Positions 3,213 through 24,899 of a DNA stretch of 64,000 bases are shown here, in pieces. A model generated the notes under the pieces. That model did no database searches. It was not told the DNA's origin and saw only the letters and a program-made list of their open reading frames with translations. Within the stretch, counting starts at the first letter, position 1. Each line of letters starts with the position of its first letter. The position numbers and the translations under genes were made by a program. The stretch comes from Mesorhizobium sp. NZP2077 (lineage in GTDB: Bacteria; Pseudomonadota; Alphaproteobacteria; Rhizobiales; Rhizobiaceae), in NCBI RefSeq assembly GCF_013170805.1, contig NZ_CP051293.1, positions 7,012,001 through 7,076,000 on the forward strand. The letters run 5' to 3'.

Positions 3213-4481
3213 TCATCTCGGGAAATCAGAGGCCGCAAATTGTTCCCGTTCGCCTGGAGTCGCAAAGGGCGTGATCGGCCAATCGATTAAGTCGACGGCA
3301 CGCTGGAGTGTCGCTTTGGTCCGGGCACGACTCGGTGAAGCGGCGATGACATATCCGATGCAGTCTCGAGAATCGCCTTTTGTGATGATCGGCGTCTCGG
3401 GCTGGACATAGAATCTAACCTCGGCGACACCTGGAATAGCAGCCGCCCGATCGTGGCCATTGATCCGTTCAAGGATCCCATCGCGATCAGCGATCAGCTT
3501 TCGGGCACTCGCAGTTTGCGAATGGCTCTTGACCAAATCCCATTTGTCGCCGATGGCAAGCTTGACGTGCTCGGTGATAAGATCGACGCCGCAAGCGAGG
3601 TGGACCAGTTGTGGGTCGGGAGCACCGCCGAGACGCGGATTGACCTCAATCATGGCTGGGCCGCGCTTCGTCCACCGGAATTCAATGTTTGTTGGCCCCC
3701 ACCCCAGGCCTAGAGCTTGCAAGCAAGTTAGCGAAATATCAGAAATACGTTCACGTTCCTGATCAGGTAGGAGGATCGGAAAGGTCAACTCCCTAGAGAC
3801 GAAGTGCGGCGGGGGACCGAACTCACTCTCGGAAATTCCAATAATCTCACTGCCCATTATCTGAGCATTATAAAGGGGGCCTTGTGCGAATTCTTCGATT
3901 AATATCCTTGGCGACGACCGCCATATGTACTTGCCCTTCAGCAGATAGGTCGTGTGTTCGATCAACTCATCGACGCTACGGCACAATCGGACACCCTTGC
4001 TTCCGCTCCCTTCGGCAGGCTTGAGAATTACCGGCAAGCCAATCTCAGCGGCAAAAGTTTCTATCTCCGTCGCATTTGCTGCCAAGCGATAAGCAGGCAT
4101 TGGAACGTCGGCCTCCGTTAAGATCTGACGTTGAACGAACTTGTCGCAGCACAGTTCAATCGACGCGGGGTTCGGCCCCGGTAGATCGAAATGTCGGCAG
4201 AGCTTGGCAACTGCCACATAGACCGACTCGTCGTCGCCCGAGAAGCCAGTAATGCCGGCAATGTCATACCCGGTGCGTAACTGCAAACATTCGTGGATCA
4301 TTGCGTCAAGATTGTCTGTTTCGACACGGATTGCCTGAACACTTTCCGTCGCAACGTAGTCGTACTGAGCTGGATCAGCGGACAGAGTAATTGGATGAAG
4401 GCCGAGACGCCGGGCTGCTTGGACGTATGCTAGACCATTACCCTTATGGCCTTCAATCAGGATAACAGCTCTTCTTGCCAT
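3213..4481 (-). CDS. ATP-grasp carboxylate-amine ligase-like protein
   Basis: A 422-residue ATP-grasp enzyme; members activate a carboxylate as acyl-phosphate and join it to an amine, often to make dipeptides or modified amino acids. The start at 4481 (MARRAVILIEGHKGNG) fits the N-terminal Rossmann-like pre-grasp domain better than an upstream ATG at 4535. The grasp fold is visible: DKFVQRQIL, then GLPVILKPAEGSGSKGVRLC (nucleotide-binding lysine and glycine-rich loop), ILIEEFAQGP, and the metal-binding MIEVNPRLGGAPDP. Substrates cannot be read from sequence. The 180 bases upstream are AT-rich and show no -24/-12 promoter. The gene stands alone between mobile debris, but its class suits the other amino-acid enzymes at 9-25 kb. 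Confidence 0.85.
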   Translation of the reverse strand: MARRAVILIEGHKGNGLAYVQAARRLGLHPITLSADPAQYDYVATESVQAIRVETDNLDAMIHECLQLRTGYDIAGITGFSGDDESVYVAVAKLCRHFDLPGPNPASIELCCDKFVQRQILTEADVPMPAYRLAANATEIETFAAEIGLPVILKPAEGSGSKGVRLCRSVDELIEHTTYLLKGKYIWRSSPRILIEEFAQGPLYNAQIMGSEIIGISESEFGPPPHFVSRELTFPILLPDQERERISDISLTCLQALGLGWGPTNIEFRWTKRGPAMIEVNPRLGGAPDPQLVHLACGVDLITEHVKLAIGDKWDLVKSHSQTASARKLIADRDGILERINGHDRAAAIPGVAEVRFYVQPETPIITKGDSRDCIGYVIAASPSRARTKATLQRAVDLIDWPITPFATPGEREQFAASDFPR

Positions 4482-4870
4482 TGGTCTGTTGACTCCGACG
4501 TTGCCTGCTGGACGACAGCCGAGACAAATCGGCATCAGCTTTGTCGGCCGACCGCGGTCTCAGATCTTGTGATGAATGTATCATCGTCGGCAATTTGTGG
4601 TCACAAAGGTTCTGTAAATTCTTTTTGGCGTCTCTGTTGCAATATTAGATGATCGTGTCTCGGGAAGTGGTATAACTGCCGGCGTTGGTCGCCGCGCTCT
4701 CCGGCAGGAAGCCGTACTGGGAAGGCTCACTCGTTAACCTTTGACCTTGCCCCTCTGAACTAATCCGGTTTGAAGTTCGTTCTGGCCCACCGCGAGGATT
4801 CAGGACATGAAACATAGCCGCTTCTCTGAAGAGATGGGGTATTCGGTTCAGCTCGCTGAACGTCTGACGT
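4482..4870. other. Intergenic stretch, no gene recognised
   Basis: AT-rich promoter-side region of the ATP-grasp gene, followed from about 4770 by transposon debris. A short segment at 4807 on the plus strand starting MKHSRFSEE resembles the first residues of an IS3-family orfA and is broken at once. No complete gene is seen. Confidence 0.4.
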
Positions 4871-5107
4871 TTGTCTGATGCTCAGAGCCGACCTGCCAAG
4901 AGGAGATTGGCATGGGCGTTTATGTTCGAGGCGGCCAACGTCATCCTGCGCCCGACGACCCGATGGTCAAGCATGAAGGCTTGGGCCATGAAGATTGCCA
5001 ATCGACAGGGTGCCCGACGTGCAAAGGTCGCGCTCGCCAGACGAATGGCAGTCACCCTTCACCGCATGTGGGTTGACGAACAGGATTTCCGTTGGTCGGC
5101 AGCTTAG
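4871..5107 (+). pseudogene. IS110-family transposase C-terminal fragment
   Basis: Remnant of an IS110-type (DEDD) transposase. From about 4914 the plus strand encodes FEAANVILRPTTRWS ... RRAKVALARRMAVTLHRMWV and ends with a stop at 5105-5107. This matches the conserved C-terminal tail of IS110 transposases, in which the sequence AANV is followed by K-A-W and HRMW motifs. Everything upstream of that tail is missing or out of frame. The 450 bases after the stop hold no recognisable gene. Confidence 0.6.
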
Positions 5108-5549
5108 GTTGAGCCGTCCACGGAATAGCGCGCTCGATGCAGGGCGCGGTCCGGACGAGTTCGCATGATCTGTCGTTGCCGGTTGCAGAGCCGTATGCAC
5201 CCGAACAAGGCCGTTGTCGCACTTGCCGCCAAGATGGCGCGCCCTTGTCTGGGTTGTCCTGACCAAGCCGGGAGCGCTCTACGAACGCAGGGACCTTGCT
5301 TTCGCCTGACCCTCCGGCTCGATTGCAAGGCTCGGGAATAGCGATGACGAAACAGTGGATCAGCATGCCGTAAGCCCTGTGCAAAAAACGGGGTTCCTGC
5401 CCGAACCATTTATTGGGAACGGCGTGCTGCGGATGTCATCATGGCCTGGCTGCAACAGCAGCTCACTCGCGAGGCCGAATACATTTACGCAACTGGAATC
5501 GTCGTCGGCGATGTCGCGAACCCTTGCACGGACGGGGCGGACCATACAT

Positions 5550-5812
5550 TTTTGACAGAAGCTCGCGCAGTGCCGACGCTTCGAGCATCTGGTCGGCGAG
5601 CAGCTTCTTCAGCTTCGCCTTCACGTCTTAAGGCTTTCAGCCGTTTGGCATCGGAGACGTCCACCCCCCATACCTCGCCTTCCAGTTATACAGCGTCGCC
5701 TCGGAGATCCCGTGCTTGCGCCCAAGATCGCCCGCCTTTGCACGCGCTTCATGCTCGCGCAAAACCGCGATGATCTGCTTCTGTATTCGGTGTCCTCCAG
5801 CCAAGGCGTGAC
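5550..5812 (-). pseudogene. IS3-family orfA fragment
   Basis: The minus strand encodes the N-terminal helix-turn-helix of an IS3-type OrfA (KQIIAVLREHEARAKAGDL, then HGISEATLYNWKARYGG). After a frame change it continues with KLKKLLADQMLEASALRELL, the leucine-zipper part. It is fused at its 5' side, without its own start, to the IS110 remnant. No orfB follows. It is a dead fragment. Confidence 0.6.
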
Positions 5813-5929
5813 GTTCGATGCAGGTTCTTTGCTTCTGTTCGCGGTCGGCACGCAGCCGCCGGCATGATGGTGTCCATGGTTCCGATCGGTTCAAAGCTCT
5901 TCGGCGTGCTCGGGAACCCATCAAGCCGG

Positions 5930-6506
5930 CCGAACGGTCATCGCGTCGAATGGCACTACATCGCGCCGGGCAAGCCGATGCCAACGGAGCGCGCTCATCG
6001 GCAGGCATTATTTGCCTCGTCAGCCATTTGCGCCCGCTGACCCCGACGAGGTTCCCATGTGGACACGGCGGGATCAGGTGGGCGTGGAGGATTGACTGGA
6101 TCAGGTTCTTCAGCCGCGAACACTGGCGAACCAGTTGTGTGCGCCTGGCAAGGGTCCCCGGATCCGGAACCCAGACCTCCGGTAGAAAGCCCGAGGCATA
6201 TAGCTTCGCAAGGACAGCGGCGTCGACCGCGTCAGTCTTCGCCTTCGCGTGCGCGATCATATGCACCTGCTTGGGATTGGCGATCACGATCCGATCCACG
6301 TAGGGCGATAGCACTTCAGCGACCGCCGCAGCATTGCCGGTCGCCTCGATCACCACATGGTCATCGTGGGTGAGTTCGAATTCCTCGAGCTTATTGCGTA
6401 GCATTTGAACGCGGCAGAGCTTGACGATCTCTCCATCAAGCAACGACACAACCTCGGCGGCTACGCGATGTATGTCCATGCCGATAATACGCACGGTTCC
6501 CTCCAT
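5930..6506 (-). pseudogene. IS110-family transposase N-terminal fragment
   Basis: N-terminal part of an IS110-family DEDD transposase, starting at 6506 (MEGTVRIIGMDIHR). Conserved features are the first catalytic Asp (GMDIH), VVIEATGNAAAVAEVL with the catalytic Glu, and AHAKAKTDAVDAAVLAKLYASG with the paired Asp residues. After about residue 150 the frame is lost near PADER and the C-terminal domain is absent. A second, shorter copy of this fragment lies at about 20450-20640, and the C-terminal piece at 4871-5107 may come from the same type of element. Confidence 0.7.
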
Positions 6507-7213
6507 CGTTAGTCACGAACAGGGAGCCTGCGGGCAACACGACAAATACGGATCCGCGCTCGCAGCGCATCCGGGCGAGTCGTTGGGGCGACCAGATAAT
6601 GTGCTCGAACTCGCAGTTCATCTGCATACGACGGCCTGCCCGCACTTGCCTGCTCCCGGTGCCCCGTGGCCCGGATCCACCAAGCTTAGCCAAACCTGAC
6701 GACCGAACAAACGATGGCACCGAGAACAACATGCCGGATAATGGCTTCATCGAGGGCTCCGCTGGCTCAGGCGCGCGCGCGTAGCCATCGCCCTGTCGCG
6801 CGCCGACTAAAATCCTGTTTCATAACACCCATCTGTCTATGTCGTTGAAGTGAATAGGTTTTGCTGATCTGGATGCGATCCCATGGGGTATTTTGGGTTT
6901 TGCCGCGCGCGATGAACGATGCGCTGAGCTGCGGGTTCGCTAAGCGTTGATCGGCTGAAGACCCATGGACCATCTGGCAGAGGATGAACGCCTCCGATCT
7001 CACCCGCCTCGGCGGCGAGCCTGAGGGTCTTCCGTGCAACGCCGAGAAGGCGCGTCGCCTTGTTCAGGTTAAGCCATGGCCCTTTGCATCCGCCGCTGGC
7101 CGGAAGACAGGGATCTTATGATGCGACCTGTGCGCGGTGACCCGTTCGCGTGTCCATCGATTGGCGTGGCCGGTCACCAGTGCATTGCGGTTGAGGATCC
7201 GGCAATCAGATCA
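6507..7213. other. Stretch without a recognisable gene
   Basis: About 700 bases between the IS110 remnant and the serine recombinase pseudogene. Several frames are open for 60-100 codons on both strands, but none has recognisable motifs or an evident ribosome-binding site. I see no RNA gene and no repeat. Confidence 0.4.
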
Positions 7214-8906
7214 TCATTGTCGATGAGCACCTTTTGGCGAACGGCCGAGATGATCGCCGGACGTGCTGTCGCGCTGTCCGCGGCGCCGCTTCGGCAGGCG
7301 CAGTTCAGTATGGACGCCGCCAACCCAATGGATCAGGAGAACGATCTCTGACGCTTCGTCATCGACATCGGCGACCACCTCTCGAATGACGGTGCGAACG
7401 ATGCGCTTCTTGAGCCTTGCATCCGTCGTCGGCGCCGCCCACACAGCCTTGAGATCGGCGGCGAGCGCGGTGACGTGTATTGGCGACAGAAGTGAGGGCT
7501 CCGATGTCGAGGCATCATGCGCGGCAATCCTGCTCTCGATCTCGCCGACACGCGTAAGCGCCCGGTTCCATCGCAACTCCAGTTCCGCCGCGACCAGCCG
7601 GGTTCTGCGGATCGATGGCGTCGTATTGCCTGAACGCCCGATCGGCGCCGTAGCGTGCCGCCTCGCGATCGCGCATCAGAGCATCGCGGACCTGATCGCG
7701 GCGACTGGCCGCTTGTGCTTCGACCTCGACGGCCGCCGCTATCGCTCCCGGCTCGACAACCCGCAGAAGCTTCCTCGATGACGTCGTCGACGCGTAGTCC
7801 ACCGAAGGCGATGCAACGCGGCTCGCCATTGTCAAGCAGACCACGCCAGCAGGAATAGCGCGGAATGTTGTGCTTGGTTCCCGTGTAGCGGACCGTCAGC
7901 TTGCGGCCGCAGCGCCGGCAGCGGACAAGGCCGGCGAGCAGAGCGTCGCCATGCTTGGGCGCCCATGATGCCGGCTCGTGGGCACGTTGTCGCGCACCAT
8001 CTTGCGGATGGCTTCCGCCCTTTCCCAGCCGACGTAGCCTTCGTGTGCACCCGGGATCAGCGCCAGCCATTCATCACGCGCCTTACGGCGGCTGCGCGAG
8101 CGAATGGCTGCTGCATCATATCCCGACGCAGCACGAGTCATACCGTAGGCGTAGGCGCCGCCGTAGATCGGGTTCTCGATCATTCGGTGGATGGTCGCAT
8201 AGCTTGGCCTGCGCCAGACCACATCGCCCGTTGTTGCGCTTGGCAGGCAAATCCAGCCCATGTTCGAGGAACCGGAGCAAGGCCTGACGGGCACTGCCGA
8301 GTTCCGCCACCTTGTCAAACACAAGGGTGATGGCCTCTTGCATGCGACGATCGGGATCCTTCTCCAGCCGGTCGCCGACCTTCATGAAGCCGACCGGGGC
8401 CAGCGACGACGAGTTCACCGCGCCGAGCCTTCTCATAGCGGCCCGACAGGGAGCGCTGACGCAGAAGATCGAGCTCATACTCGTTGAGACTGCCCTTCAA
8501 TCCCAGCAGCAGCCGGTTATTACCCTGGCGCGGTGCGTAGACCGTCTCCTGGTCGATCAGCACGGTATCGACGACGCGGCACATCTCGATGAGCTGCTGC
8601 CAGTCGCGGCTGTTGCGGGCGAAGCGCGATACCTCCCGCCGCCGCAACCGCCCCAACCTTGCCGAGACAGACTGCGGCGACCATCCGATCGAAGCCCGCT
8701 CGCGCGACACCGCCAGCAGCAGAGCGGCCGAGATCGTCATCGACCGTCTCGATGCAAGACCAGCCGAGTGCCACCAGGCGATCGCGCATCGCATACTGCA
8801 GGGCGCGGCTCTCACGATTGTGTAGAACCTGATGGGCCGAGGACTGCCGCACATAAAGGATCGCCTTGCGCTCCAGATGGTGGGGCCGGATCTTCTCATG
8901 CATCAT
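7214..8906 (-). pseudogene. Large serine recombinase, several frameshifts
   Basis: Remnant of a large serine recombinase (resolvase/invertase superfamily) of the kind carried by integrative elements. From the start at 8906 (MMHEKIRPHHLERKAILYVR) the catalytic-domain motif YVRQSSAHQVLHNRESRAL with its nucleophilic Ser is visible, then SRFARNSRDWQQLIEMCRV and [20 protein letters not shown]. The recombinase domain ([20 protein letters not shown]) and a zinc-ribbon segment (VRCRRCGRKLTVRY ... IPRYSCWRG) follow, then a long helical C-terminus ending about 7214. These pieces sit in three different frames, so at least three frameshifts have broken the gene. Part of its upstream neighbour and its first codons recur at 20.7-21.2 kb. 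Confidence 0.75.
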
Positions 8907-9607: not shown

Positions 9608-10393
9608 TCAGATCATGAACGAGCCGCCGTTAACATCTAGCGTCACACCAGTGAGGAAGGCAGCGTCTTCAGATGCCAAGTAGGCGACCGCGGCGGCGAT
9701 GTCTTCGCCGGTGCCAAGTCGGCCGACAGGAATGCGGGCGACATAAGCCTGGTTAAGCTCGGCACCAGCTGCGGTAGCCATTGGTGTTTCAATGCGGCCC
9801 GGCGCAATGGAATTCACCGTGATGTTCGCTGAGCCTACTTCAACCGCAAGGGTGCGGGCAAGGGCCATCATGCCGGCCTTGGACGCGGCATAGTGGGCTC
9901 CTGCAATCTCGGTTTTCGTTCGGCCGGCTACCGATGCAATGTTGATGATCCGGCCCCATTTCGCCGCCCGCATGTGGGGAAGGCAGGCCCGGCAGCAAAG
10001 GAAGGCGCCTGTCAGGTTAACTTCCAGAACCTGACGCCACTCCGCAGCGAGCATATCTTCCACCCTTGCCTTCCGTCCGCCGTGTTTCGGAGAGATTCCA
10101 GCGTTGTTGACCAAGATGTCGACCCGCCCGAATCGGGCCGATGCGGCCTCGACCATTCGCGTGATATCAGCATCTTTGGACACATTCGCACCCACCGCCA
10201 AGGCCCGGCCAGTATAGTCCGAAGACAGGGTCGAAATGCTGGCGTTCAGGTCGCTCTCGGAGAGGTCCGCCAGCACCACATCTGCGCCGGCGTTGATAAA
10301 TCGCGTGGCAATCGCAAATCCAATGCCCCGCGCCGCGCCTGTCACCAGAGCCACCTTGCCGGCGAATGTGGTTGCCTGTGAAATTTGGTCCAC
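9608..10393 (-). CDS. Short-chain dehydrogenase/reductase (FabG-like)
   Basis: A 261-residue classical SDR, a NAD(P)H-dependent oxidoreductase acting on a carbonyl or hydroxyl. The cofactor motif TGAARGIG is at residues ~19-26, NNAG at ~95, and the catalytic Ser (NIASVAG) and YxxxK (YAASK) are all present. The tail LTGVTLDVNGGSFMI is typical of FabG-like reductases. The length is normal, so the gene looks intact. It is divergent from nothing and isolated, with about 400 bases of AT-rich DNA upstream that holds no clear -24/-12 promoter. Substrate unknown. In this neighbourhood it could reduce the ketone made by the alpha-oxoamine synthase at 14.7-15.9 kb, which is only inference. Confidence 0.88.
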   Translation of the reverse strand: MDQISQATTFAGKVALVTGAARGIGFAIATRFINAGADVVLADLSESDLNASISTLSSDYTGRALAVGANVSKDADITRMVEAASARFGRVDILVNNAGISPKHGGRKARVEDMLAAEWRQVLEVNLTGAFLCCRACLPHMRAAKWGRIINIASVAGRTKTEIAGAHYAASKAGMMALARTLAVEVGSANITVNSIAPGRIETPMATAAGAELNQAYVARIPVGRLGTGEDIAAAVAYLASEDAAFLTGVTLDVNGGSFMI

Positions 10394-11608: not shown

Positions 11609-11938
11609 ATGACAAGCAAGACGACCAACAAGTTCTCTCCCGAGGTCCGAGCCCGTGCGGTGCGGCTGGTTCTGGATCACGAAGGCGAGCATGCCTCGCG
11701 GTGGGCGGCGGTGTCGTCGATCGCCGCCAAGATCGGCTGCACGGCGCAGACGCTGCATGAGTGGGTGAAGAAGGCCGAGCGCGACAGTGGCGTGCGAGCC
11801 GGTGTGCCTACGGATGTGGCGACGAAACTCAAGGCTTTGGAACGCGAGAACCGCGAGCTTCGCCAGGCCAACGAAATCCTTCGCAAGGCTTCCGCGTATT
11901 TTGCCCAGGCGGAGCTCGACCGCCGGTTCAAGCCATGA
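11609..11938 (+). CDS. IS3-family transposase OrfA
   Basis: 109-residue OrfA with an N-terminal helix-turn-helix ([17 protein letters not shown] ... [20 protein letters not shown]) and a C-terminal leucine-zipper ([20 protein letters not shown]). It provides sequence-specific binding to the element ends and, in most members, a fused OrfAB by -1 frameshifting. Its stop overlaps the orfB start as ATGA (11935-11938). Intact. Confidence 0.9.
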
Positions 11939-12839
11939 TCGCATTCATTGACGATCACCGCGAGGCGCATGGGGTCGAGCCGATCTGCAAGGCGCTGCCG
12001 ATCGCCCCGTCGACCTACCACGACCATGTCGCCAAGCGCATCGCTCCCTCCCGGCTGTCGGCTCGGGCAAAGCGGGATGAGGCTTTGAAGGATGAGGTCC
12101 GACGCGTGTTCGAGGCGAATTTCCGCGTCTACGGCGTTCGCAAGGTCTGGCGGCAGTTGCAGCGCGAGGGCTTCGATGTCGCCCGCTGCACGGTTGCCCG
12201 CCTGATGAAGGCCATGGGCCTCGAAGGCATCATCCGTGGCAAGCCGATCCGCACCACGGTGAGCGACAAGGCGGCACCATGCCCTCTCGATCACGTCAAT
12301 CGCCAGTTCCATGCCCCGGCGCCGAACATGCTGTGGGTCTCCGACTTCACCTACGTCGCGACCTGGACGGGCTTCGTCTATGTCGCCTTTGTCATCGACA
12401 CCTATGCTCGCCGGATCGTCGGCTGGCGGGTGAGCCGGACGGCGCATGCCAGCTTCGTTCTGGACGCTCTGGAACAGGCTCTCCATGATCGGCGGCCCGT
12501 GCAGGGAAGCGGGCTCATCCATCACAGCGATAGAGGCAGCCAATACGTCAGCATTCGATACACCGAGCGCTTGGCGGAGGCCGGCGTCGAGCCTTCGGTG
12601 GGCAGTGTCGGCGATAGCTACGACAATGCTCTCGCCGAAACGATCAACGGCCTCTACAAGGCCGAGGTGATTCATCGACGCGGACCATGGCGCTCGTTCG
12701 AGGCCGTCGAGTTCGCGACGTAGAATGGGTCGACTGGTTCAACAATCGCCGGCTGCTGGAGCCCATCGGCAACATCCCGCCGGCCGAAGCCGAGGAACGC
12801 TACTATGCCATGCTGGAAGAACCAGCCGTGGCCGCGTGA
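11935..12839 (+). pseudogene. IS3-family transposase OrfB, frameshifted near the 3' end
   Basis: Catalytic subunit with an rve integrase core: [20 protein letters not shown] (first Asp), [12 protein letters not shown] (second Asp) and [20 protein letters not shown] (Glu). At about 12719 the frame meets TAG right after FEAVEFAT. The normal continuation [16 protein letters not shown] ... RYYAMLEEPAVAA is read one frame away to a stop at 12837-12839, so one base appears to be missing. The catalytic triad lies before the break, so partial activity cannot be excluded, but the element is probably not autonomous. Confidence 0.8.
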
Positions 12840-13491: not shown

Positions 13492-14685
13492 TTAATAGCT
13501 GTGTTCGTCGTAAGCGACCGGCGCGCTAGCGTTCCGACGTACAAACTCGATAGCTTCCCGCACCGCCGATAGATACTCTTCGACGGTGGCCAGATGAGCT
13601 GGGTTGACACCCTGTTGGATCGCCTGGGGCTCGCGCATACGCCCGCGCAGCCAACCGCGCTCTTCCAGGCGATCGGCGACTGCATAGATGTCAAGCGCGG
13701 AGTCCAGCGACACAAAGGAGATCAGGTTACTCTCGCCGTAGGGCGCCAGGCACTCGATGTCGGGAATGCTGTTCAGGCCAGCGATAAGCCGCGTGGTGGC
13801 CTCCATCGTGAGCCTCGCCGCGCGCAGATAGCCCTCCATGCCAAGGTAGTGCATTACCGCCCATGCGGACGCGATTGCGCCGCCGGCCCGGGTCCCGAGG
13901 AATGTAGGGGTGGAGTATGTTCCCCGAGGCCACCCGCTGAATGAGAACGCTTCATGATCCTGGTCATCGGCTGACCGATACAATACCAGGCTGGCGCCCT
14001 TGGCTGCGTACCCGAACTTGTGGATATCGGCCGACAAACTGGATACGCCTAGAACCCGGAAGTCCCACGGGGGCACCGGATAGCCGAGCCGCTCGGTAAA
14101 TGGTGAGAGAAAGCCGCCCCAGCAGCCGTCAACGTGAAGCCGAAGACCCGAATGCTGTGCCAGCTTGCCGATCTCTGCGATCGGATCAAAGGTGCCGAAG
14201 GGATAGTTGGGCGCAGATGCAAACAGCATTATGGTCTTGTCGTTGATGGCGGAGCGCATCAACGAGGGGTCGGCCCTGAACTCCTTGGTGTGCGGGGTTC
14301 GAATGATATCCACGCCGAGAAGCTCTCCAGCCTTGTTAAGACAAGGATGAGCGGTGACACATGCAACAATGTTGTAGCGTTCAGGCGGCTCGCCTCGTTT
14401 GTGTCGCGCAAGGTCCCGGGCCGTCTTTACCGCCATGAAGACGCTTTCAGTGCCGCCAGAGGTGAAGGAGACGCCGGCATCGTCGGGCGCATTGAAAAGT
14501 GACTTTGCCATCGCCTTGATGTCGTTGGTCATCACCTCCAGGCTCTTGAACGCCCGCCCTGCTCCCAGGCCATTCTCAGCAATAAACTCGCCATAGGCCT
14601 CGCGCTGGACGTCTAAGGTCTCGTCATCTAGGAAGTAGGTGTAAGATGGTACCCGGCCAACTTCCTCGCCATGGTCCAGCTCGCC
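13492..14685 (-). CDS. PLP-dependent decarboxylase/lyase (sphingosine-phosphate-lyase-like), unusual start
   Basis: Group II PLP decarboxylase family protein related to bacterial tyrosine/aspartate decarboxylases and sphingosine-1-phosphate lyase. Motifs: SFTSGGTESVFMAVKTARD (cofactor phosphate site), LHVDGCWGGF, and SADIHKFGYAAKGAS with the PLP lysine. Conserved family sequence extends upstream of the first ATG (14535): VPSYTYFLDDETLDVQREAY and FIAENGLGAGRAFKSL. That stretch is open in frame right back to the TGA stop of the preceding alpha-oxoamine synthase (14686-14688), with no ATG. The usual ~30-residue N-terminus is missing. Translation may begin at CTG/GTG, follow readthrough of the TGA, or the gene may be truncated. 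The C-terminus looks complete. It forms an operon with the synthase; substrate unknown. Confidence 0.8.
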   Translation of the reverse strand, partial: GELDHGEEVGRVPSYTYFLDDETLDVQREAYGEFIAENGLGAGRAFKSLEVMTNDIKAMAKSLFNAPDDAGVSFTSGGTESVFMAVKTARDLARHKRGEPPERYNIVACVTAHPCLNKAGELLGVDIIRTPHTKEFRADPSLMRSAINDKTIMLFASAPNYPFGTFDPIAEIGKLAQHSGLRLHVDGCWGGFLSPFTERLGYPVPPWDFRVLGVSSLSADIHKFGYAAKGASLVLYRSADDQDHEAFSFSGWPRGTYSTPTFLGTRAGGAIASAWAVMHYLGMEGYLRAARLTMEATTRLIAGLNSIPDIECLAPYGESNLISFVSLDSALDIYAVADRLEERGWLRGRMREPQAIQQGVNPAHLATVEEYLSAVREAIEFVRRNASAPVAYDEHSY

Positions 14686-15933
14686 TCAATCCGGCTTTGG
14701 CTGCGCGCTAATGAGTCTCCGGCCCAGACTAGCTACGTCTCGGATTGACTCACAAAGTTGGGTGACCTCTTCCAGACTATGGTCTGCGGTCAGGCATACG
14801 CGCAGAGCAGCCTTGTCGCGGGGCACCGTCGGATAAAATGCTGCGGCCACATAAAAGCCACGCCGCAATAGCTCTGCCGCCGTATCCACCGCTGCCCGAG
14901 ACGCACCAATCGGGACCATCCGGATTGGCATTCCGTCACCTGACGATTGCGTCGGCATTTTCTCGTCAAAACGTTGAACGACCCTACTCAGGCGGGCCTG
15001 GCGCTCACCCAGCTCCGCAGACCGATGAATCTCTGCTGATGCTAAGGCACCTGCAATTCCGGCCAAGTCTGGCCCCATTGAGAATGCATGCGGGACGGCG
15101 TAACGTCTAAGCAGTTTCTCCTGCTCTTCCGTCCCAAGCATGAGAACACCGCCAGTTACTCCGAAGCCTTTGCTCAAAGAAGCCGCGATGATTGTGTTTT
15201 CGCCTAGATCTGTCATTTGCGATTTGGCATATCCTTGGCCATTCCTTCCCCGGATTGAGATACCATGCGCATCATCGATGTAGATGAATAGCCCATAACG
15301 TTCTTGGAGACGCAAAAGCTCACGAATTGGGGCATTTCCGCCCATTGAATACACACCATCGCATATATAGGCGACGCGTGTGTGTTTCCGACAAATACCC
15401 TCCAGTTCCTCAATGTCGTTGTGCCCAATTTGCAGAACCTCTGCATCTTCGGCCATAACAGCCTTGTGGTATGCCAAAGTGGCATGGGCAAATCGGTCGA
15501 ACACAAGTACCGGCTTGCGTCCTCTGGTAAAAGCCCCGCATGCGAGTAACGGGAGCGCGCTCATGTTCGCTGTCAGAACCAAGGAGTATACGACAACCCG
15601 TGCATCGAAAAGTTCAGATAAGCTGTATTCGAGATCTCGGGTTAGCGAGAAATTCAATCTCGTGCGTGCACCGGACCACTGTATCGAGCGATATGACGCT
15701 AATGCTGCTATTGCAGCGTCCACGATCATCGGATGGTTATCAAGCCCGAGATAACTGCCTCTCGCGAATTCTATCACCGATCGTCCCGGCTCGAGCTCCA
15801 CGTGTCGCCGCTCAAGCGAGCGGGCATACAGTGTCATTATTCCTTTGGAGTACGCATAGTCGAAATCTGGTCTGGACTTCTCAATTATGCTGGCAAGATC
15901 ACGAAATCTCTGCTTGTCCACATGACTCTCCAT
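14686..15933 (-). CDS. Alpha-oxoamine synthase (AONS/CqsA-like)
   Basis: A ~415-residue fold-type I PLP enzyme of the alpha-oxoamine synthase family (8-amino-7-oxononanoate synthase, ALA synthase, serine palmitoyltransferase, CqsA). Members condense an acyl thioester with an amino acid and release CO2. Visible motifs: FARGSYLGLDNHP, SGARTRLNFS, ICDGVYSMGGNAP, IYIDDAHGIS (PLP Asp and His), AASLSKGFGVTGG (PLP Lys). The start at 15933 (MESHVDKQRF) fits a -24/-12 promoter at 15992-16007, whose predicted transcript begins near 15981, downstream of the ATG at 16008. The 3' stop is directly continuous with the decarboxylase frame. BioF is unlikely because no biotin genes are nearby. Confidence 0.87.
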   Translation of the reverse strand: MESHVDKQRFRDLASIIEKSRPDFDYAYSKGIMTLYARSLERRHVELEPGRSVIEFARGSYLGLDNHPMIVDAAIAALASYRSIQWSGARTRLNFSLTRDLEYSLSELFDARVVVYSLVLTANMSALPLLACGAFTRGRKPVLVFDRFAHATLAYHKAVMAEDAEVLQIGHNDIEELEGICRKHTRVAYICDGVYSMGGNAPIRELLRLQERYGLFIYIDDAHGISIRGRNGQGYAKSQMTDLGENTIIAASLSKGFGVTGGVLMLGTEEQEKLLRRYAVPHAFSMGPDLAGIAGALASAEIHRSAELGERQARLSRVVQRFDEKMPTQSSGDGMPIRMVPIGASRAAVDTAAELLRRGFYVAAAFYPTVPRDKAALRVCLTADHSLEEVTQLCESIRDVASLGRRLISAQPKPD

Positions 15934-15991
15934 CAAAGATAATTTACGCTTGTCATCATCGGCAACCCCGCCCACGTAGCCAATGTGTCCC

Positions 15992-16007
15992 ATCAAAAGT
16001 CGTGCCA
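15992..16007 (-). promoter_or_regulatory. Sigma-54 (-24/-12) promoter of the alpha-oxoamine synthase operon
   Basis: TGGCACGACTTTTGAT on the minus strand, almost identical to the nifH promoter in this window (TGGCACGAGTTTTGAA), including the same GA in place of GC at -12. It lies ~60 bases before the preferred ATG at 15933. Confidence 0.65.
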
Positions 16008-16095
16008 ACTTTACAGAAGGGAGGCCGAACTAAATTTTCTTCTTGTCTGTCAACGACTTGATCAGGATGCAGCGTCAATCAGGCAGGTCCCGCTA

Positions 16096-17234: not shown

Positions 17235-17250
17235 TGGCATGGCGCATGCG
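17235..17250 (+). promoter_or_regulatory. Weak sigma-54-like promoter before asnB-like gene
   Basis: TGGCATGGCGCATGCG has GG and GC at the correct 10-base spacing, but departs from the TGGCAC-N5-TTGC consensus at three positions. It is 58 bases upstream of the asnB-like ATG at 17308. Confidence 0.35.
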
Positions 17251-17307: not shown

Positions 17308-19140
17308 ATGTGCGGCATCTGTGGATGGATTGATTTCGATCGTGACCTAGGAAGTCCCGACGCGCGAAGGGAGCTTGCCGATATGACGGCCACCATGGCC
17401 TATCGTGGTCCGGACGACGAGGGGACTTGGATCGACGGGCCTGCGGCACTGGGACACCGCCGCCTGGCGATCATCGATTTCCAGGGCGGCCGTCAGCCGA
17501 TAACGCACCAGGAGGATGGCCGACCGGCTTTGGTGCTCGTCTACACCGGCGAGACTTACAACCACCGCGAACTGCGTCAACGGCTTGCCTCCCAGGGCCA
17601 TCGGTTCGACACGAGCAGTGACACCGAGGTGGTGCTGCGCGCCCACCGCGAGTGGGGCCAGCGTGACCCCCGCAGAGCCGTGAGCGAACTCAACGGGATG
17701 TTTGCCTATGCACTGTGGGACTCCAGCAAGCGCGAACTGCTTCTCATACGCGACCGGCTGGGCATCAAGCCGCTTTACTACTATCCCACCCAGCATGGAG
17801 TGTTGTTCGGCTCCGAGCCAAAGGCGATCCTCGCCAATAGTCTCGCCGAGCGGGCCATGGACGCCGACGGGCTTCGGCGAACACTATCTCTCGTCGCCGA
17901 CCCGCATAACACCGTGTTCCGTGGCATGCGTGAGGTACGGCCCGGCCACATCGTCCGCGTGACCCGCGAAAGCATCAAGGAGGTGAGCTACTGGCAGCTC
18001 ACCGACAGCGGGCACACCGACGACGTGCCTACGACGGTTCGGCGCGTCCGAGAGTTGCTCGAGGACACGATCCAGCGGCAGCTCATCGCCGACGTGCCGC
18101 TGTGCACACTCTTGTCGGGCGGGCTTGATTCCTCGGCTATGACCGCCCTGGCCGCGCGCTTCAGCGACGAACGGATCCGATCCTTCGCCCTCGACTTCGT
18201 CGGCTACACTGACAACTTCATTCCTGGCCCGGCGCACCCCACACCCGACGGGCCATACGTGCAGGATGTCGCGAAGTTCGTCGGTACCGACCACACGGAC
18301 ATTACGTTGTCGGCGAACGAACTCATGGACTCGAACGTGCGGGCCGCCACCCTCCACGCCCGCGACCTGCCGTTGACCTACGGGAACCAAGATAGCTCCG
18401 TTTACCTGCTGTTCCGGGCCATCCGGCAACACTCGACGGTGGCCCTCTCTGGGGAGGGTGCCGACGAGCTTTTCGGCGGCTACCGGTTTTTCCACGATCC
18501 CTCGTACATTCAGGCCGACACGTTTCCCTGGATCGATGACAGCGACGATATCGTGCGGCGGTGCTTAGACCCTGGCCTTGTCGAGAAACTCGACCTCCCC
18601 GGGTACCTCGACGAGCAGTACCGCAGGGCACTTGCGGAAGTACCGGCCCTGACCGGGCCGGCCTCGGCCGATCCGCACGAGCGTCGCATGCGCGAGATCT
18701 CCTACCTCTTCCTGACGCGTTACCTGCCGATGGAGCTCGACCACAAGGACCGGATGAGCATGGCTTTGGGTCTTGAGGTGCGGGTCCCTTACTGCGATCA
18801 CCGTCTGGTTGAGTACGTGTTCGGCACCCAATGGGCCCAGAAGGCCTTCGACGGGCGCGAGAAGAGTCTGCTGCGAGCCGCCACGATGGACCTGCTCCCG
18901 CAGTCGGTGGTCCAACGTGTGAAGAGCGCGTATCCGATTATCCAGGATGCCACCTATGACAGAATGCTGCGCACGCGGTTCACCGCGCTGCTGAATGACC
19001 GCAATGCGGCAGTGGCCCCGCTGTTGTCTCTCGACCAGTGCCGGGCATTGCTCGATGCGACCGACAACTTCAGGCGGGTTGAGAAAATCCTGACCCTGCA
19101 GGATTTCCTGACGGATTACAACGTGAGTCTCACGATCTGA
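17308..19140 (+). CDS. asnB: Asparagine synthetase (glutamine-hydrolysing) family protein
   Basis: A 610-residue class II amidotransferase. The start at 17308 places Cys as residue 2 (MCGICGWIDFD), the glutaminase nucleophile; upstream in-frame ATGs would bury it. The N-terminal glutaminase domain has MAYRGPDDEGTW and ALGHRRLAIID. The synthetase domain has the ATP pyrophosphatase loop LLSGGLDSSAM at about residue 270 and ALSGEGADELFGGYRFF, then MELDHKDRMSMALGLEVRVP. All catalytic elements of AsnB look intact. Members outside primary metabolism amidate or cyclise pathway intermediates (beta-lactam synthetases belong here), but this protein keeps the Cys and looks like a true glutamine-dependent enzyme. 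It is isolated between IS fragments and very GC-rich, as in an acquired gene. Confidence 0.88.
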   Translation: MCGICGWIDFDRDLGSPDARRELADMTATMAYRGPDDEGTWIDGPAALGHRRLAIIDFQGGRQPITHQEDGRPALVLVYTGETYNHRELRQRLASQGHRFDTSSDTEVVLRAHREWGQRDPRRAVSELNGMFAYALWDSSKRELLLIRDRLGIKPLYYYPTQHGVLFGSEPKAILANSLAERAMDADGLRRTLSLVADPHNTVFRGMREVRPGHIVRVTRESIKEVSYWQLTDSGHTDDVPTTVRRVRELLEDTIQRQLIADVPLCTLLSGGLDSSAMTALAARFSDERIRSFALDFVGYTDNFIPGPAHPTPDGPYVQDVAKFVGTDHTDITLSANELMDSNVRAATLHARDLPLTYGNQDSSVYLLFRAIRQHSTVALSGEGADELFGGYRFFHDPSYIQADTFPWIDDSDDIVRRCLDPGLVEKLDLPGYLDEQYRRALAEVPALTGPASADPHERRMREISYLFLTRYLPMELDHKDRMSMALGLEVRVPYCDHRLVEYVFGTQWAQKAFDGREKSLLRAATMDLLPQSVVQRVKSAYPIIQDATYDRMLRTRFTALLNDRNAAVAPLLSLDQCRALLDATDNFRRVEKILTLQDFLTDYNVSLTI

Positions 19141-20000: not shown

Positions 20001-20012
20001 GCCAACGAGCGG

Positions 20013-20676: not shown

Positions 20677-21230
20677 GCGCTCGAGATGGTGGGGCCGGAT
20701 CTTCTCATGCATCATTGCGCTCCTCCTCGCGTGGAGCGACGCGCTCGCCGTCGACGTGGTCGAGGATCAGGCGCACCATCAGCTTTGTCGCGTCAGGCGC
20801 GTCTCTTGCGGCAGCGCCTGCCATGGTTGCACTGCGCGTCGTGCGGGTTGGAGAACAGATCGAACTGATATGTTGTGGGCTGGCGCGGCATGGACCCCCG
20901 ATTCGCGTCGTGAGGACCCGATGCTGCGCCCGAATCCTCCAATTGCGATGGGGTGTGGGAATTGGCCGTCGCGGATGCAGCAGTGTCACCAAGACGCCAA
21001 GCGTTCTGAGATCGACATGGGGGGCAGCGGCAATGCGCCACGCGGTGCAGACCACGCGATCAAACATCCAGGCCGGAACCTCCAGCCACCGATCGGAGGC
21101 GTGGCCAGAGAGACTGCAGCGGAAACCCTCCCGGTCTGCCTTCTCGATCACCTCATGAACATGAACCCAACGCCGGCCCAAGGATGCCATGGATAAAGAA
21201 ACTTGCGTTCCTCGGTCCCGTAGGCGTTCT
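20677..21230 (-). repeat. Duplicate of the serine-recombinase leader region (8.87-9.29 kb)
   Basis: This segment repeats, with few differences, the DNA at about 8870-9290: the small recombinase-associated gene (MASLGRRWVHVHEVIEKADR) and the first 14 codons of the recombinase (MMHEKIRPHHLERK). This copy keeps about 125 bases that are missing from the other. The recombinase is cut off at about 20678. The frame differences leave it unclear whether the small gene is intact here (minus 20705-21198). Confidence 0.65.
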
Positions 21231-21234
21231 TTCG

Positions 21235-21412
21235 TCGTGTTGTTCAACACCGCGAGGCCGCATTCCTCGCTCGGCTACGAGACCCCGGCGGCCTTCGCCG
21301 GAACCGACTTCGACGCTGCGCACAATTAAGGCTTGGCGTCTCCGCCGGTTTCTCAAACCGCGCCATACGGCGTAACAGGAACAGCCGAGGCCCTGATCGC
21401 CACTGGATGAAA
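21235..21412 (+). pseudogene. IS3-family OrfB C-terminal fragment
   Basis: Plus-strand FNTARPHSSLGYETPAAFAG is the conserved end of IS3-type OrfB (the R-P-H-S-S-L-G motif), with a stop soon after at AAHN and a degraded tail (EALIATG). The rest of the transposase is absent. From 21413 to 21670 no gene is seen; this is the flank of the next IS110 element. Confidence 0.6.
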
Positions 21413-21670
21413 GCTCAGTGGCATGTATGGACGGCCCCCGCGTGGCAAGTGCTTTTCGGCGTTTCTGACGATTGGTCGGGTGCAGGCATGTATACGGCCT
21501 TTGATTGCGGCGCGTTTATGCCGCTGGCCCTGATGTAGTCCGCGGATCGGATCCCAGACAGGTCAACGCGCTTTCAAGCGGCACCCACTGATCGGGTTTG
21601 TCCGATCCCGGCTCGACCGTTCGCCATCACACCATCAGCACCTCACCAATTTCTGCATCCTCGCGATCTT

Positions 21671-22696
21671 TCAAAGGGCGACGGTAGACTCAAAGCGCCT
21701 GCCCGTCGTCATTAGCGCCCAGACGATCCGTGCCATCTTGTTCGCCAAGCGAACAGCGACGACGTTGTACGGCTTCTTCACCAGAAGCTCGGCGGCCCAT
21801 CGCGTAGGTGCAACTTCGGCCTTGCGGCTGAAACGAAGCACTGCGTGTGCTCCGACAACGAGAAGCCGGCGGAGATAGGGATCGCCTTGTTTGCTGATCC
21901 TTCCGAGGCGGTCCTTGCCACCCGATGAGTTCTGCCGCGGCACCAGGCCTATCCACGCCGCCAGTTGTCGGCCGGATTTGAAGAGCGATGCGTCTGTCAC
22001 TGTCGCGGTGAGTGCGCTGGCAGTGATCGGGCCTATTCCGGGGATCGTCTCAAGGCGTCGGCTCAACTCATTCGAGCGATGCCACGCATGAATCTGGCGG
22101 TCCATCTCACGGACCTTCTCGTGCACCTCCCGCAACTGCTGGATCAGCGGAAGAAGTGCGGACCGCGCAAGCGGCGGGACGGGATCGGGATCACCGTCTT
22201 CGATCAACGCGATCAGCATACCGACCCCGGCAATCCCCTGTCGCGTTACGATGCCGAACCCGGCCAAGTGGCCGCGCAAGGCGTTCACCAGCATCGTCCG
22301 CTGCCGGATCAAAAGCTCGCGGACCCCATGTAGCATCAGCACACTCTGTTGCTCCTCGCTCTTCACCGGAACGAAGCGCATCGTCGGCCGCGTCACCGCC
22401 TCGCAAATCGCCTCTGCATCAGTGGCGTCATTCTTCTGCCGCTTCACATATGGCTTGACGTAAGACGCCGGCATCAGCCGAACCTCGTGGCCCAGTGCAA
22501 TTAGAACCCGAGCCCAGGGGTGTCCTGTCGCACAAGCCTCGATACCGATCAGGCACGGCGGCAAAGCCTCGAAGAATCCAACGACATCGTCGCGGCGCAG
22601 CTTACGGCGGGTCACGGTTGCGCCAGCAGCATTGATCCCGTGGACCTGGAACAGGTGCTTGGCGTTATCCACCCCAATTGTGGTAATCTTCTCCAT
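21671..22696 (-). CDS. IS110-family transposase, intact
   Basis: A 341-residue DEDD transposase (DEDD_Tnp_IS110 then Transposase_20). The start at 22696 (MEKITTIGVDNAKHLFQVHG) gives the normal N-terminus and the first catalytic Asp. IGIEACATGHPWARVL carries the Glu and RQKNDATDAEAICEAVTRP the paired Asp residues. The second domain has ETIPGIGPITASALTATV and LAAWIGLVPRQNSSGGKDRL with the catalytic Ser region. No frameshift is visible, so this is the only plainly complete IS110 transposase gene in the window and could mobilise related fragments. It lies directly downstream of the oxygenase gene. Confidence 0.92.
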   Translation of the reverse strand: MEKITTIGVDNAKHLFQVHGINAAGATVTRRKLRRDDVVGFFEALPPCLIGIEACATGHPWARVLIALGHEVRLMPASYVKPYVKRQKNDATDAEAICEAVTRPTMRFVPVKSEEQQSVLMLHGVRELLIRQRTMLVNALRGHLAGFGIVTRQGIAGVGMLIALIEDGDPDPVPPLARSALLPLIQQLREVHEKVREMDRQIHAWHRSNELSRRLETIPGIGPITASALTATVTDASLFKSGRQLAAWIGLVPRQNSSGGKDRLGRISKQGDPYLRRLLVVGAHAVLRFSRKAEVAPTRWAAELLVKKPYNVVAVRLANKMARIVWALMTTGRRFESTVAL

Positions 22697-22807
22697 GGAC
22701 GGCTCTCCCTCATGTGACTTTCGACAGCCACACTTTGGCACATTGCGATGCCGGGAGCGGAGGCCGTCCACCACATCAGGTCACGCTCAGCGGCTGCGAC
22801 ATTCACG

Positions 22808-23650
22808 TCAGGTCCACCAGAGAACAAGATCTGGCCGCGCAAATCCGAAAAAGCAATTCAGCAGCACGCGACGCTTTCCGTTGCCTGATTGACCGGTAAC
22901 CCCATGAACGAAACCGCCGTCAAGTAGCGCGATATCCCCGGCCTTGAGCTGGATTTCGCGACTAGGCACGGCCTCGAGATAAGCTGCGGAGTAGGGATAT
23001 CCCGTGGTCTCCACACCCTGCGACTTTCGATCTGCCACTGTCGGCTTGTGGCTCCAGAGCCGCAGATTGCCACCTTCCTCAGGCATGCTGGGATAAAAGT
23101 TGAGTGCTGCGACGGTGTTGTGCGCCACCGCAGAAAGCTCGTAATCGTTCCCGGCACGTAACACTTGAGCGACATCGTCGTGGGGGTCCAAGGAAAATGT
23201 GCCGCTTCCGGTCCAACTGAGAGCCCGACAAACGTTCGCCTGACCGTGTTCTGAGCGCGCCAGCCGCAATTCAATGCCTTGGTTGTGAAGCTCGCGCTTC
23301 AACGCGTCGAATAAGGCTCGGACCGGGTCAACTAAAAAGCCAAAAAGAGCGTCAACGTGTGGCCGCGCAGTTTCTGCCTCCGCGAAATAGGTGGCTGCAT
23401 CCTTCCTGTAGTGGGATGCGCCCACATATTGTCCGGGGACGCCATCTTTGCGCTCCCTGAGACCGGGACTGCCAAAAAACTTCGCGGTGATCTCCTCGGC
23501 TATTTCGGCGCTGAAAGCTTGGCTGATATGCAGAGCCGTGATCTCACCTTTTAGGACCGAGATGATCTCCGCGGTGCTGATCGAGCCGGTTCGTTCCTCG
23601 ATCGTAAGAGGCGAGATGGCCGGCGTTTGAAGTGCTTGGTTAGTCGCCAT
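22808..23650 (-). CDS. 2-oxoglutarate/Fe(II)-dependent oxygenase
   Basis: A 280-residue non-haem iron oxygenase. The start at 23650 (MATNQALQTPAIS) overlaps the end of the upstream aminotransferase gene by 11 bases, so the two are translationally coupled. The double-stranded beta-helix core shows the facial triad: HxD in LDPHDDVAQV (residue ~160), a distal His in GGFVHGVTG, and the 2-oxoglutarate-binding Arg in KRRVLLNCFFG. The Asp of HxD is present, which points to a hydroxylase rather than a halogenase. Similar small oxygenases act on free amino acids, but the substrate cannot be assigned. Partnered with an EctB-type aminotransferase, a diamino acid is a reasonable guess. Confidence 0.85.
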   Translation of the reverse strand: MATNQALQTPAISPLTIEERTGSISTAEIISVLKGEITALHISQAFSAEIAEEITAKFFGSPGLRERKDGVPGQYVGASHYRKDAATYFAEAETARPHVDALFGFLVDPVRALFDALKRELHNQGIELRLARSEHGQANVCRALSWTGSGTFSLDPHDDVAQVLRAGNDYELSAVAHNTVAALNFYPSMPEEGGNLRLWSHKPTVADRKSQGVETTGYPYSAAYLEAVPSREIQLKAGDIALLDGGFVHGVTGQSGNGKRRVLLNCFFGFARPDLVLWWT

Positions 23651-24899
23651 TTGTTTTCTCCTGTAGTGCCTGATCGAGGATGGCAATGCCGTGATCAAGT
23701 TCGTCATCTGAGATTGTTATCGGCGGAAGGACTTTGATGACGTCGCGATTTGGCCCCGACGATTCGATCAGCAGGCCGTTTTCGAACGCGACATCGTGCA
23801 CACGGCCAACAACGGCCTGTGAACGGCACTTGAGGCCGGCCATCAGACCCCGGCCGCGCTTTTGTTCGATGCACTTCGGGAATTTCGCAACGAGGCGATC
23901 AAGGTGTTCTTGCAATTTTACGGCCGTCCCCTCGACGGCTTTAGTAAACTGCCTATCGGACCACATTTTGCACATGGCCGCGGAAGTCACAAAGGCGAGA
24001 TTATTCCCTCTAAAGGTCCCGCTATGTTCTCCCGGATTCCATATGTCCATCTCGGGGCGAATCAGAACTATGGACAACGGATTACCTGAACCGCTTAGCG
24101 ATTTCGAAAGACAAACGATGTCGGGCTCGATTTTCGCGAACTCGAATGAGAAGAAATCGCCCGTTCGTCCCGAACCTGCCTGAATGTCATCGACGATGAA
24201 AACAACGTCGTGCTTACGGCAAATGCGCTGAATTTCTGCAAGCCATGGTGCGGATGCGGTGTTCATGCCGCCTTCTGCCTGGATGGGCTCCAGGATGATT
24301 GCGGCCGGCTTTTCTATCCCGCTGCCTGGGTCGCCCAAGACGTGATCAATGTAACTCGCGGAATCGAAAGTTTGGTTCGGATAATTCTCGTAAGGGACAC
24401 GGATCACATCGTGGCGAGCAACGCCGCCAAGCTGTCTGGTTGACGCTGAACCCGAAACCGCCAAGGAGCCGAGCGACATGCCATGGTACGAATTTGTGAA
24501 GGCCATGACACTTGAGCGGCCGGTATATTTTCGCGCCAGCGCCAACGCCGCTTCGTTAGCGTTCGTCCCGGTCGGCCCAGGAAACTGTATTTTGTATGAA
24601 AGGCCCCGGGGCTTCAGGATCGACTCGACAAACACTTCGATGAAATCACGCTTTACAGCTGTATACATATCAAGCGACAAGACGATATTTTGATCGGTGA
24701 GATATTGAATTGCCGGTTCAATAATATCCGGGTTGTTATGACCGTAGTTGAGCGCGCCGGACCCTACAATGAAATCAATATAAGCCTTTCCGGACTCGTC
24801 CCAGATTGTCGCCCCAAGTGACTTTTTAAAGACTGTTGGAAACGAGCGTCCATAACGACGAACGTTAGACTCATAAGCTTCGAAAATGTCGATATCCAT
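23640..24899 (-). CDS. EctB-type diaminobutyrate-2-oxoglutarate aminotransferase
   Basis: A 419-residue class III PLP aminotransferase close to EctB/Dat, which turns aspartate semialdehyde into 2,4-diaminobutyrate. The start at 24899 (MDIDIFEAYESNVRRYGRSF) matches the family N-terminus. Motifs: GPTGTNANEAALALARKYTG, FTNSYHGMSLGSLA, IVDDIQAGSGRTGDFFSFE, CLSKSLSGSGNPLS with the PLP Lys, and GEHSGTFRGNNLAFVT. No ectA or ectC is present, so ectoine is not the product. The frame continues upstream of 24899 for 47 codons (from 25040) with a stretch resembling the first helix of an acyl carrier protein; this may be a remnant. The gene overlaps the oxygenase gene downstream. Confidence 0.88.
   Translation of the reverse strand: MDIDIFEAYESNVRRYGRSFPTVFKKSLGATIWDESGKAYIDFIVGSGALNYGHNNPDIIEPAIQYLTDQNIVLSLDMYTAVKRDFIEVFVESILKPRGLSYKIQFPGPTGTNANEAALALARKYTGRSSVMAFTNSYHGMSLGSLAVSGSASTRQLGGVARHDVIRVPYENYPNQTFDSASYIDHVLGDPGSGIEKPAAIILEPIQAEGGMNTASAPWLAEIQRICRKHDVVFIVDDIQAGSGRTGDFFSFEFAKIEPDIVCLSKSLSGSGNPLSIVLIRPEMDIWNPGEHSGTFRGNNLAFVTSAAMCKMWSDRQFTKAVEGTAVKLQEHLDRLVAKFPKCIEQKRGRGLMAGLKCRSQAVVGRVHDVAFENGLLIESSGPNRDVIKVLPPITISDDELDHGIAILDQALQEKTNGD

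Follow-up and report, generated by a model that had tools for sequence, protein, structure and literature searches.

A nif-linked ectB-oxygenase gene pair of rhizobial symbiosis islands, predicted to make and hydroxylate a diamino acid

Do the enzyme genes scattered through the nif island of Mesorhizobium sp. NZP2077 serve one pathway, and if not, which of them belong together? The DNA analyzed here, referred to as the window, is a stretch of 64,000 nucleotides (positions 7012001-7076000 of contig C1, NZ_CP051293.1, in the 7.69 Mb genome G000). A previous sequence-only reading had located seven enzyme genes in it, encoding an ATP-grasp ligase, a short-chain dehydrogenase/reductase (SDR), an alpha-oxoamine synthase (AONS), a pyridoxal phosphate (PLP) decarboxylase, an AsnB-type amidotransferase, an EctB-type aminotransferase and a 2-oxoglutarate (2OG)/Fe(II) oxygenase, and had proposed that together they build, hydroxylate and further condense, ligate or amidate a diamino acid. 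All seven open reading frames (ORFs) match the families assigned to them (7/7), and the one-pathway idea itself is partly supported. Specifically, ectB and the oxygenase gene (oxy, encoding Oxy) form a conserved, overlapping, nif-linked pair that is under purifying selection and whose oxygenase is of the hydroxylase type, whereas the other five genes recur with this pair only in few, closely related or partial cases. Judged from sequence, the pair is a functional unit whose probable role in nodules is to make an unusual diamino acid and to hydroxylate it.

The ectB gene (23640..24899, minus strand) encodes a predicted L-2,4-diaminobutyrate:2-oxoglutarate aminotransferase that scores 644.9 bits on TIGR02407, above the curated cutoff of 552.2. 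The oxygenase gene (22808..23650, minus strand) matches PF22814 with 42.7 bits (cutoff 27), and its start overlaps the ectB stop by 11 nt (23640..23650, minus strand), with an AGGAG motif 7 nt before this second start. Scanning our genome collection with the oxygenase returned 60 loci, 51 of them titled Mesorhizobium, 7 Bradyrhizobium, 1 Aminobacter and 1 'Bacterium', while the plasmid search returned seven records, five rhizobial (Mesorhizobium 2, Sinorhizobium 2, Rhizobium 1) and two from Streptomyces at 29-32% identity. EctB lies directly upstream of Oxy in 60/60 genome loci (its match being split in two in L025) and in 5/5 rhizobial plasmid loci. The two reading frames overlap in all 65, by 8 nt in 36, by 11 nt in 20 and by 4-128 nt in eight; in the remaining one, from R. 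jaguaris, they are fused into a single 696-aa ORF.

The pairing also holds when it is approached from the aminotransferase. Among 146 Mesorhizobium genomes, 77 carry Oxy and 75 carry the window's EctB clade (E<=1e-150), which is adjacent to Oxy in every one of the 75; the genomes with an oxygenase only are G045, where it contains two stops, and G142. On plasmids, the five records with an EctB of at least 80% identity are the same five that have an Oxy of at least 60%, and rhizobial EctBs outside the window's clade are 50-53% identical among the matches listed. The dN/dS ratio is 0.10-0.21 across the two genes, ectB and oxy (six comparisons), and 0.10-0.13 for ectB alone (three comparisons). 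One locus, from Mesorhizobium camelthorni (L026), holds two oxygenase copies, at 2436 and 5374.

The pair is tied to nitrogen fixation genes. nifH is present in 100 of the 146 genomes and in 76 of the 77 with Oxy (Fisher p 8e-19, not corrected for relatedness). In 54 of these 76 genomes the two genes share a contig, at most 45 kb apart in 50 of the 54 (median 29 kb), whereas in the other 22 they are on different contigs. As such, the ectB-oxy operon is a common, not universal, part of Mesorhizobium symbiosis islands, and it occurs in Mesorhizobium, Bradyrhizobium, Sinorhizobium, Rhizobium and Aminobacter. The earlier suggestion of a diamino acid that is built and then hydroxylated fits this nif-linked operon.

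What reaction might Oxy catalyze? Its sequence contains the iron-binding facial triad H157, D159 and H249 and the 2OG-binding R261, that is, the full site of a hydroxylase; H157-x-D159 is invariant in 44 sequences, as are H249 and R261. A structure model reached a pLDDT of 91.4 when distant actinobacterial homologues were added (41.3 from 34 close homologues alone) and matches over its whole length the fold of the WelO5 family and of 3w20, an N-substituted amino-acid dioxygenase, including the triad positions and the 2OG-binding Arg. The similarity lies in the fold: Oxy is only 13-17% identical to WelO5, a phmmer search of the PDB found nothing at E<=1, and profile matches to WelO5 are weak (E 0.11-1.2). 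Databases label Oxy a WelO5 halogenase. Halogenases carry an HxG iron site in which Gly replaces Asp, and the title of entry 5iqu names the mutation G166D. Oxy has Asp at this position and EctB as its partner, and because its site reads HxD...H...R it is predicted to be a hydroxylase; halogenase identity was rejected on the same residue. A similar logic is known from BesD-type amino-acid halogenase pathways, in which a 2OG enzyme acts on a free amino acid and an ATP-grasp ligase takes part, with the difference that the window's enzyme lacks HxG.

The position of the pair connects it to published work on M. loti R7A. The -24/-12 promoters reported for msi262, acdS, msi276 and msi280 of the R7A symbiosis island (PMC3538637) recur in the window at 25844+, 36182-, 40360- and 43009-, and a TGT-N10-ACA site lies no more than 100 nt from each of them. 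The first of them (25844..25858, plus strand), which precedes the divergent iscN-iscU, is identical in its letters to the msi262 promoter given in Table 1 of that paper, and iscN/iscU, queEDC, a LacI-like ORF and acdS follow in order, so that the window looks colinear with the R7A island. Since promoters and gene order both match, the window's ectB is equated by position with msi260, which shows the same layout of iscN, acdS, fdxB and NifA promoters. In addition, CJ3Sym, reported to carry the R7A island (PMC4572658), has a stretch (L016) whose EctB and Oxy are 97% and 95% identical to the window's.

This correspondence matters for expression. In the R7A nodule table, an msi260::lacZ fusion gave 1339 Miller units, compared with 5.1 in a nifA2 mutant, second to aatA (2456) in the table excerpt and above nifH (855) (PMC3538637). 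Table 4 of the same paper lists msi260 among genes with NifA/RpoN promoters and its text states that there is none; in agreement with the text, no NifA/sigma-54 promoter lies within 700 nt upstream of ectB in the window. TGT-N10-ACA occurs upstream of ectB in 19 of 65 relatives, one of which (L029) also has a loose -24/-12 match, and neither is claimed as a promoter. Diaminobutyrate itself has been reported from nodules. In nodules formed by a P. phymatum nifA mutant, an ectB transcript was down (log2FC -7.58) and 2,4-diaminobutanoate was lower (PMC8305402), and R. leguminosarum Dat makes L-2,4-diaminobutyrate (DABA) in pea nodules, where Dat mutants lack it, and these mutants grow poorly on homoserine (PMC10228743). 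The excerpts available from PMC3538637 name no product for msi260, and neither the oxygenase nor its product is described in the titles and abstracts found within the CC-licensed text of PubMed Central (PMC).

The best explanation of the data, and one more likely than not, is a model in which EctB, by family equivalence, would convert L-aspartate-4-semialdehyde and glutamate to DABA, and Oxy would then hydroxylate DABA or a derivative of it with Fe(II), O2 and 2OG, as its coupling to EctB, its fold and its active site suggest. EctB would return 2OG from glutamate and might thereby supply the co-substrate of Oxy. In nodules, expression of the pair would depend on NifA2, as the published msi260 fusions indicate (PMC3538637). 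Strain-specific neighbours, such as ATP-grasp ligases, sets of AONS, aminomutase, thiamine pyrophosphate (TPP) enzyme and SDR, and MATE or ABC exporters, probably complete the product or export it. The window's own neighbours of ectB-oxy resemble an accessory set that is incomplete, broken up by IS elements and acquired separately.

Several observations weigh against this model. Specifically, 24 of the 100 nifH genomes have no oxygenase, and an msi260 mutant was Fix+ and formed a fully effective symbiosis on Lotus corniculatus (PMC3538637). The fold relatives of Oxy act on indole alkaloids (WelO5) and on N-substituted amino acids (3w20). The P. phymatum ectB and the R. leguminosarum Dat may belong to another EctB clade, and the presence of an oxygenase beside msi260 in R7A is deduced from CJ3Sym, the recipient of the R7A island.

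How, then, do the remaining five enzymes relate to the pair? The ATP-grasp ligase (3213..4535, minus strand; a start at 4481 is also possible) has a LAL_C2 domain and belongs, as its homologues indicate, to a multi-copy ligase family of symbiotic replicons. On plasmids, this family matched 115 records at 243 places (E<=1e-30), 78 of these records at 60-80%, and among the matches listed Rhizobium and Sinorhizobium plasmids hold it at up to 6 places per record. A tree of 26 rows is star-like; the window's gene groups only with two near-identical copies and one from S. americanum, and not with the ATP-grasp gene of the aminomutase operon described below. The combination of ATP-grasp and LAL_C2 is shared with L-amino acid ligases of the BL00235 type, to which there is a weak match (3vot, 36.9 bits), but the best PDB match is another ATP-grasp protein (4dim, 61.6 bits), and the family at hand is a rhizobial one present in many copies.

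The AsnB-type glutamine amidotransferase (17308..19140, plus strand, starting at MCGICG) scores 463.6 bits on TIGR01536 (cutoff 267.1) and is considered accessory. Four orthologues, at 81-83%, stand in four other neighbourhoods, that of S. chiapasense 9 kb from acdS and the nif-specific fdxB. A sigma-54-like site at 17235-17249, 58 nt before the asnB start, is not claimed as a promoter because no TGT-N10-ACA lies within 300 nt. For the PLP enzyme (13492..14679, minus strand), the label 'decarboxylase' holds in so far as Pfam Pyridoxal_deC matches with 69.3 bits. The best NCBIfam model, MfnA, reaches 189.8 bits, under its cutoff of 299.4, and among solved structures it comes closest to sphingosine-1-phosphate lyases (3mad, 262 bits, versus 91 for MfnA). 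Moreover, the enzyme aligns without gaps, at 97%, to residues 24-418 of a 418-aa ORF in the Mesorhizobium genome G048; the first 23 codons are gone, and translation could begin no earlier than a GTG at codon 71. The gene, truncated at its 5' end, is likely a remnant. In G048 its counterpart lies 4.8 kb from the AONS gene, with IS ORFs in between.

AONS (14686..16008, minus strand), a PLP acyltransferase of the PRK07505 clade (480.9 bits, cutoff 342), and the FabG-like SDR (9608..10393, minus strand; family match) are likewise regarded as accessory and resemble part of another recurrent rhizobial locus that is found without ectB-oxy. A related AONS stands with an aminomutase-type aminotransferase, a TPP enzyme and an SDR, and no EctB or Oxy, in all four plasmid loci opened out of 167 records matched, namely S. 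meliloti pEmeLPU88b, R. leguminosarum pSK04, Shinella WSC3-e and Mesorhizobium B2-1-8. Five further genome stretches with AONS were read: L113 and L116 hold the same set, L112 and L115 only AONS and the aminomutase-type gene, L112 with a piece of an SDR, and L114 repeats the B2-1-8 plasmid. ABC transporter genes or response regulators stand beside several copies of this locus in Rhizobiales (L113, L116, L119-L122). The enzyme types are shared with the window, but the window's AONS is 53-56% identical to these relatives and its SDR 41% identical to that of the set in L034. In the window, no TPP enzyme was matched, and no aminomutase was found beyond a weak fragment resembling one at 28975-29568; the best aminomutase match in the whole genome is 47%. 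The window's own AONS type occurs in two of the 146 Mesorhizobium genomes, NZP2077 and G048 (E<=1e-150), has an orthologue in Aminobacter, and is found on two Rhizobium plasmids, at 91.3% in Rhizobium CB3060 and at 89.6% in R. acidisoli, with an ATP-grasp gene within 3 kb.

It is against this background that the proposal of one pathway, in which EctB, Oxy, AONS, SDR, ATP-grasp and AsnB build a single amino-acid-derived metabolite under LuxR control, has to be weighed. The closest approach to the full set is found in Aminobacter anthyllidis (L024, L085, L086), where EctB, Oxy, AsnB (reversed), AONS, SDR, ATP-grasp and LuxR (reversed) follow in the order of the window, and SDR and ATP-grasp are separated by 476 nt. 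Reading the ORFs there shows IS-like ones between AONS and SDR, and the PLP enzyme is a 63% relative about 20 kb further on, so that six of the seven enzymes are present. The aligned pieces are 92-97% identical in nucleotides (Oxy protein 88%), and because of this identity the Aminobacter copy may represent one island passed around. In G048, SDR and ATP-grasp at 96-97%, with an IS110-like ORF between them, accompany a more distant ectB-oxy (83-86%). Furthermore, the window's SDR occurs in seven of the 146 genomes (its own included; E<=1e-90), and all seven have Oxy, a count that adds weight to the one-pathway proposal; the distance is 6-34 kb in five (NZP2077, G048, G075, G076 and G087), with different contigs in two. 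Next to the SDR stands a TPP enzyme in the five genomes besides NZP2077 and G048. In G087, roughly 11 kb away from ectB-oxy, ATP-grasp, aminomutase, TPP enzyme and SDR lie in a row on one strand; neighbours among the last three are spaced by 3 nt or share 4 nt. AONS relatives at least 80% identical to that of L034 occur in 13 genomes, nine of which have Oxy, within 10 kb in six of the nine; eight more genomes have only relatives at 61-64%, none on the Oxy contig. AONS, SDR, ATP-grasp and AsnB also appear constrained (dN/dS 0.13-0.28; dS is saturated for the PLP enzyme, which has no value), and asnB of R7A (msi323), a putative counterpart of the window's, is NifA2-dependent in nodules (PMC3538637).

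Set against this are the neighbour counts for the 60 oxygenase loci, read with flanks of up to 10 kb. Orthologues of AONS and AsnB occur in one locus, that of Aminobacter, and of SDR and of the PLP enzyme in none; ATP-grasp of the window's family occurs in 13, with a fragment in seven more that is mostly cut by the locus end; and all seven enzymes were met together in none. Nor do AONS, SDR, ATP-grasp or AsnB have a match in the 19.4 kb L016 stretch of the R7A island. Together with the aminomutase/TPP locus without EctB or Oxy, of which the window has neither the TPP enzyme nor a full aminomutase, this makes a single pathway unlikely in our estimate. The gene order in Aminobacter and G048 and the SDR count constitute the best evidence of a wider link, and local recombination or shared descent of the island could yield the same picture. 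Homologues that stand apart or in other loci, which would speak against a common pathway, were thus found in part, for AONS/SDR, for AsnB and for the truncated PLP enzyme, but not for the ectB-oxy pair, and for the other five enzymes an origin in different gene groups is more likely.

Other explanations concern the pair itself. EctB might supply primary metabolism, taking aspartate semialdehyde derived from homoserine to DABA and from there to beta-alanine and pantothenate, a route put forward for R. leguminosarum Dat, with Oxy modifying an unrelated compound. The phenotype of the Dat mutants favours such a route, but Dat may be of another EctB clade, and why EctB is so strictly paired with Oxy, in overlapping frames, would be left unexplained; we regard the route as quite unlikely. 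That ectB feeds a citrate-type (NIS) siderophore, N-hydroxylated by the monooxygenase behind a NifA promoter at 41.3-42.8 kb, is suggested by that N-monooxygenase-like gene and by six of the 60 loci (L042, L043, L045, L046, L047 and L063), in which a second EctB, 47% identical to the window's, and an IucA/IucC synthetase directly follow Oxy (in L045 a GNAT gene comes next). These loci, however, carry an EctB of their own, the other 54 show no synthetase in the flank read, and the L045 protein used as a query finds no IucA/IucC match in the window, which renders the siderophore very improbable. The chance that the product is ectoine, hydroxyectoine or a halogenated amino acid is next to negligible: EctB is an equivalog of the ectoine pathway and databases call Oxy a WelO5 halogenase, but EctC (PF06339) has no match in the genome, although the same model does match in NZ_CP104160, and HxD rather than HxG is invariant. 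The ectoine pathway was rejected on the missing EctC, and the window's clade differs further from ectoine-pathway EctB in always standing beside the oxygenase in the genomes searched. Our preferred reading therefore stays with DABA formation followed by hydroxylation.

The surroundings of the pair bear out the description of IS-rich DNA on a nif island with a LuxR-type regulator at its edge. Eight of ten further ORFs scanned match mobile-element families (transposase, resolvase or integrase), such ORFs separate the enzyme genes from one another, and nifH lies at 52.4-53.3 kb beside nifDKENX, the latter recognised by ORF reading without a family search. Mobile elements include a group II intron (1794-2013, Rfam), a two-ORF IS3-type element (11609..12723, plus strand; Rfam and family scan) with an ALIL pseudoknot at 11893-12009, and an IS110-type transposase directly downstream of the oxygenase (21671..22774, minus strand; family scan). 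The LuxR-type regulator (81..752, plus strand), whose start may be outside the window, has autoinducer-binding and GerE domains, and its family is present in 37 of the 60 oxygenase loci. Upstream of ectB-oxy, many Mesorhizobium loci carry a LuxR regulator, an MsbA-like ABC exporter (26/60) and a radical SAM/SPASM protein (29/60); the latter two occur together in L029, L031-L033, L035-L039, L042-L050, L054, L057, L059, L062, L063, L067, L072 and L073, and L028, L030 and L034 add to the radical SAM/SPASM count.

Among the other neighbours, the N-monooxygenase-like gene (41269-42759) lies behind the promoter of the R7A msi280 type and scores 204 bits on TIGR04439, under the cutoff of 700. The queEDC set (26943-28670) adjoins ectB-oxy in the window and in Lotus-type islands, and it contains one of two near-full-length QueC matches in the genome, the other being at G000:C1:7160628. 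A Streptomyces angustmyceticus plasmid (L087) carries a 29% Oxy homologue with QueE, QueD, FolE, a QueC-like synthase and an ATP-grasp gene. The arrangement in Lotus-type islands and this one distant homologue are the grounds on which the que genes might be counted into the pathway.

In a broader and, at this stage, speculative extension, which we consider a long shot, the hydroxylated DABA made by ectB-oxy would be a nodule-only building block common to symbiotic islands. Using its particular member of the diversified ATP-grasp family, optionally with AONS/TPP/SDR or NIS enzymes, each lineage would turn this block into strain-specific conjugates, which would mark effective bacteroids with a modular chemical signature. 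More immediately, the oxygenase partner of msi260 yields a concrete two-step prediction and, if the hydroxylase reading is true, the database label 'halogenase' for the Oxy family is misleading. Nodules would then hold a hydroxylated diamino acid that is absent from the literature found and that may play roles in nutrition, competition or signalling. Since the msi260 fusion is more active than the nifH fusion in M. loti nodules (PMC3538637), the identity of this product matters.

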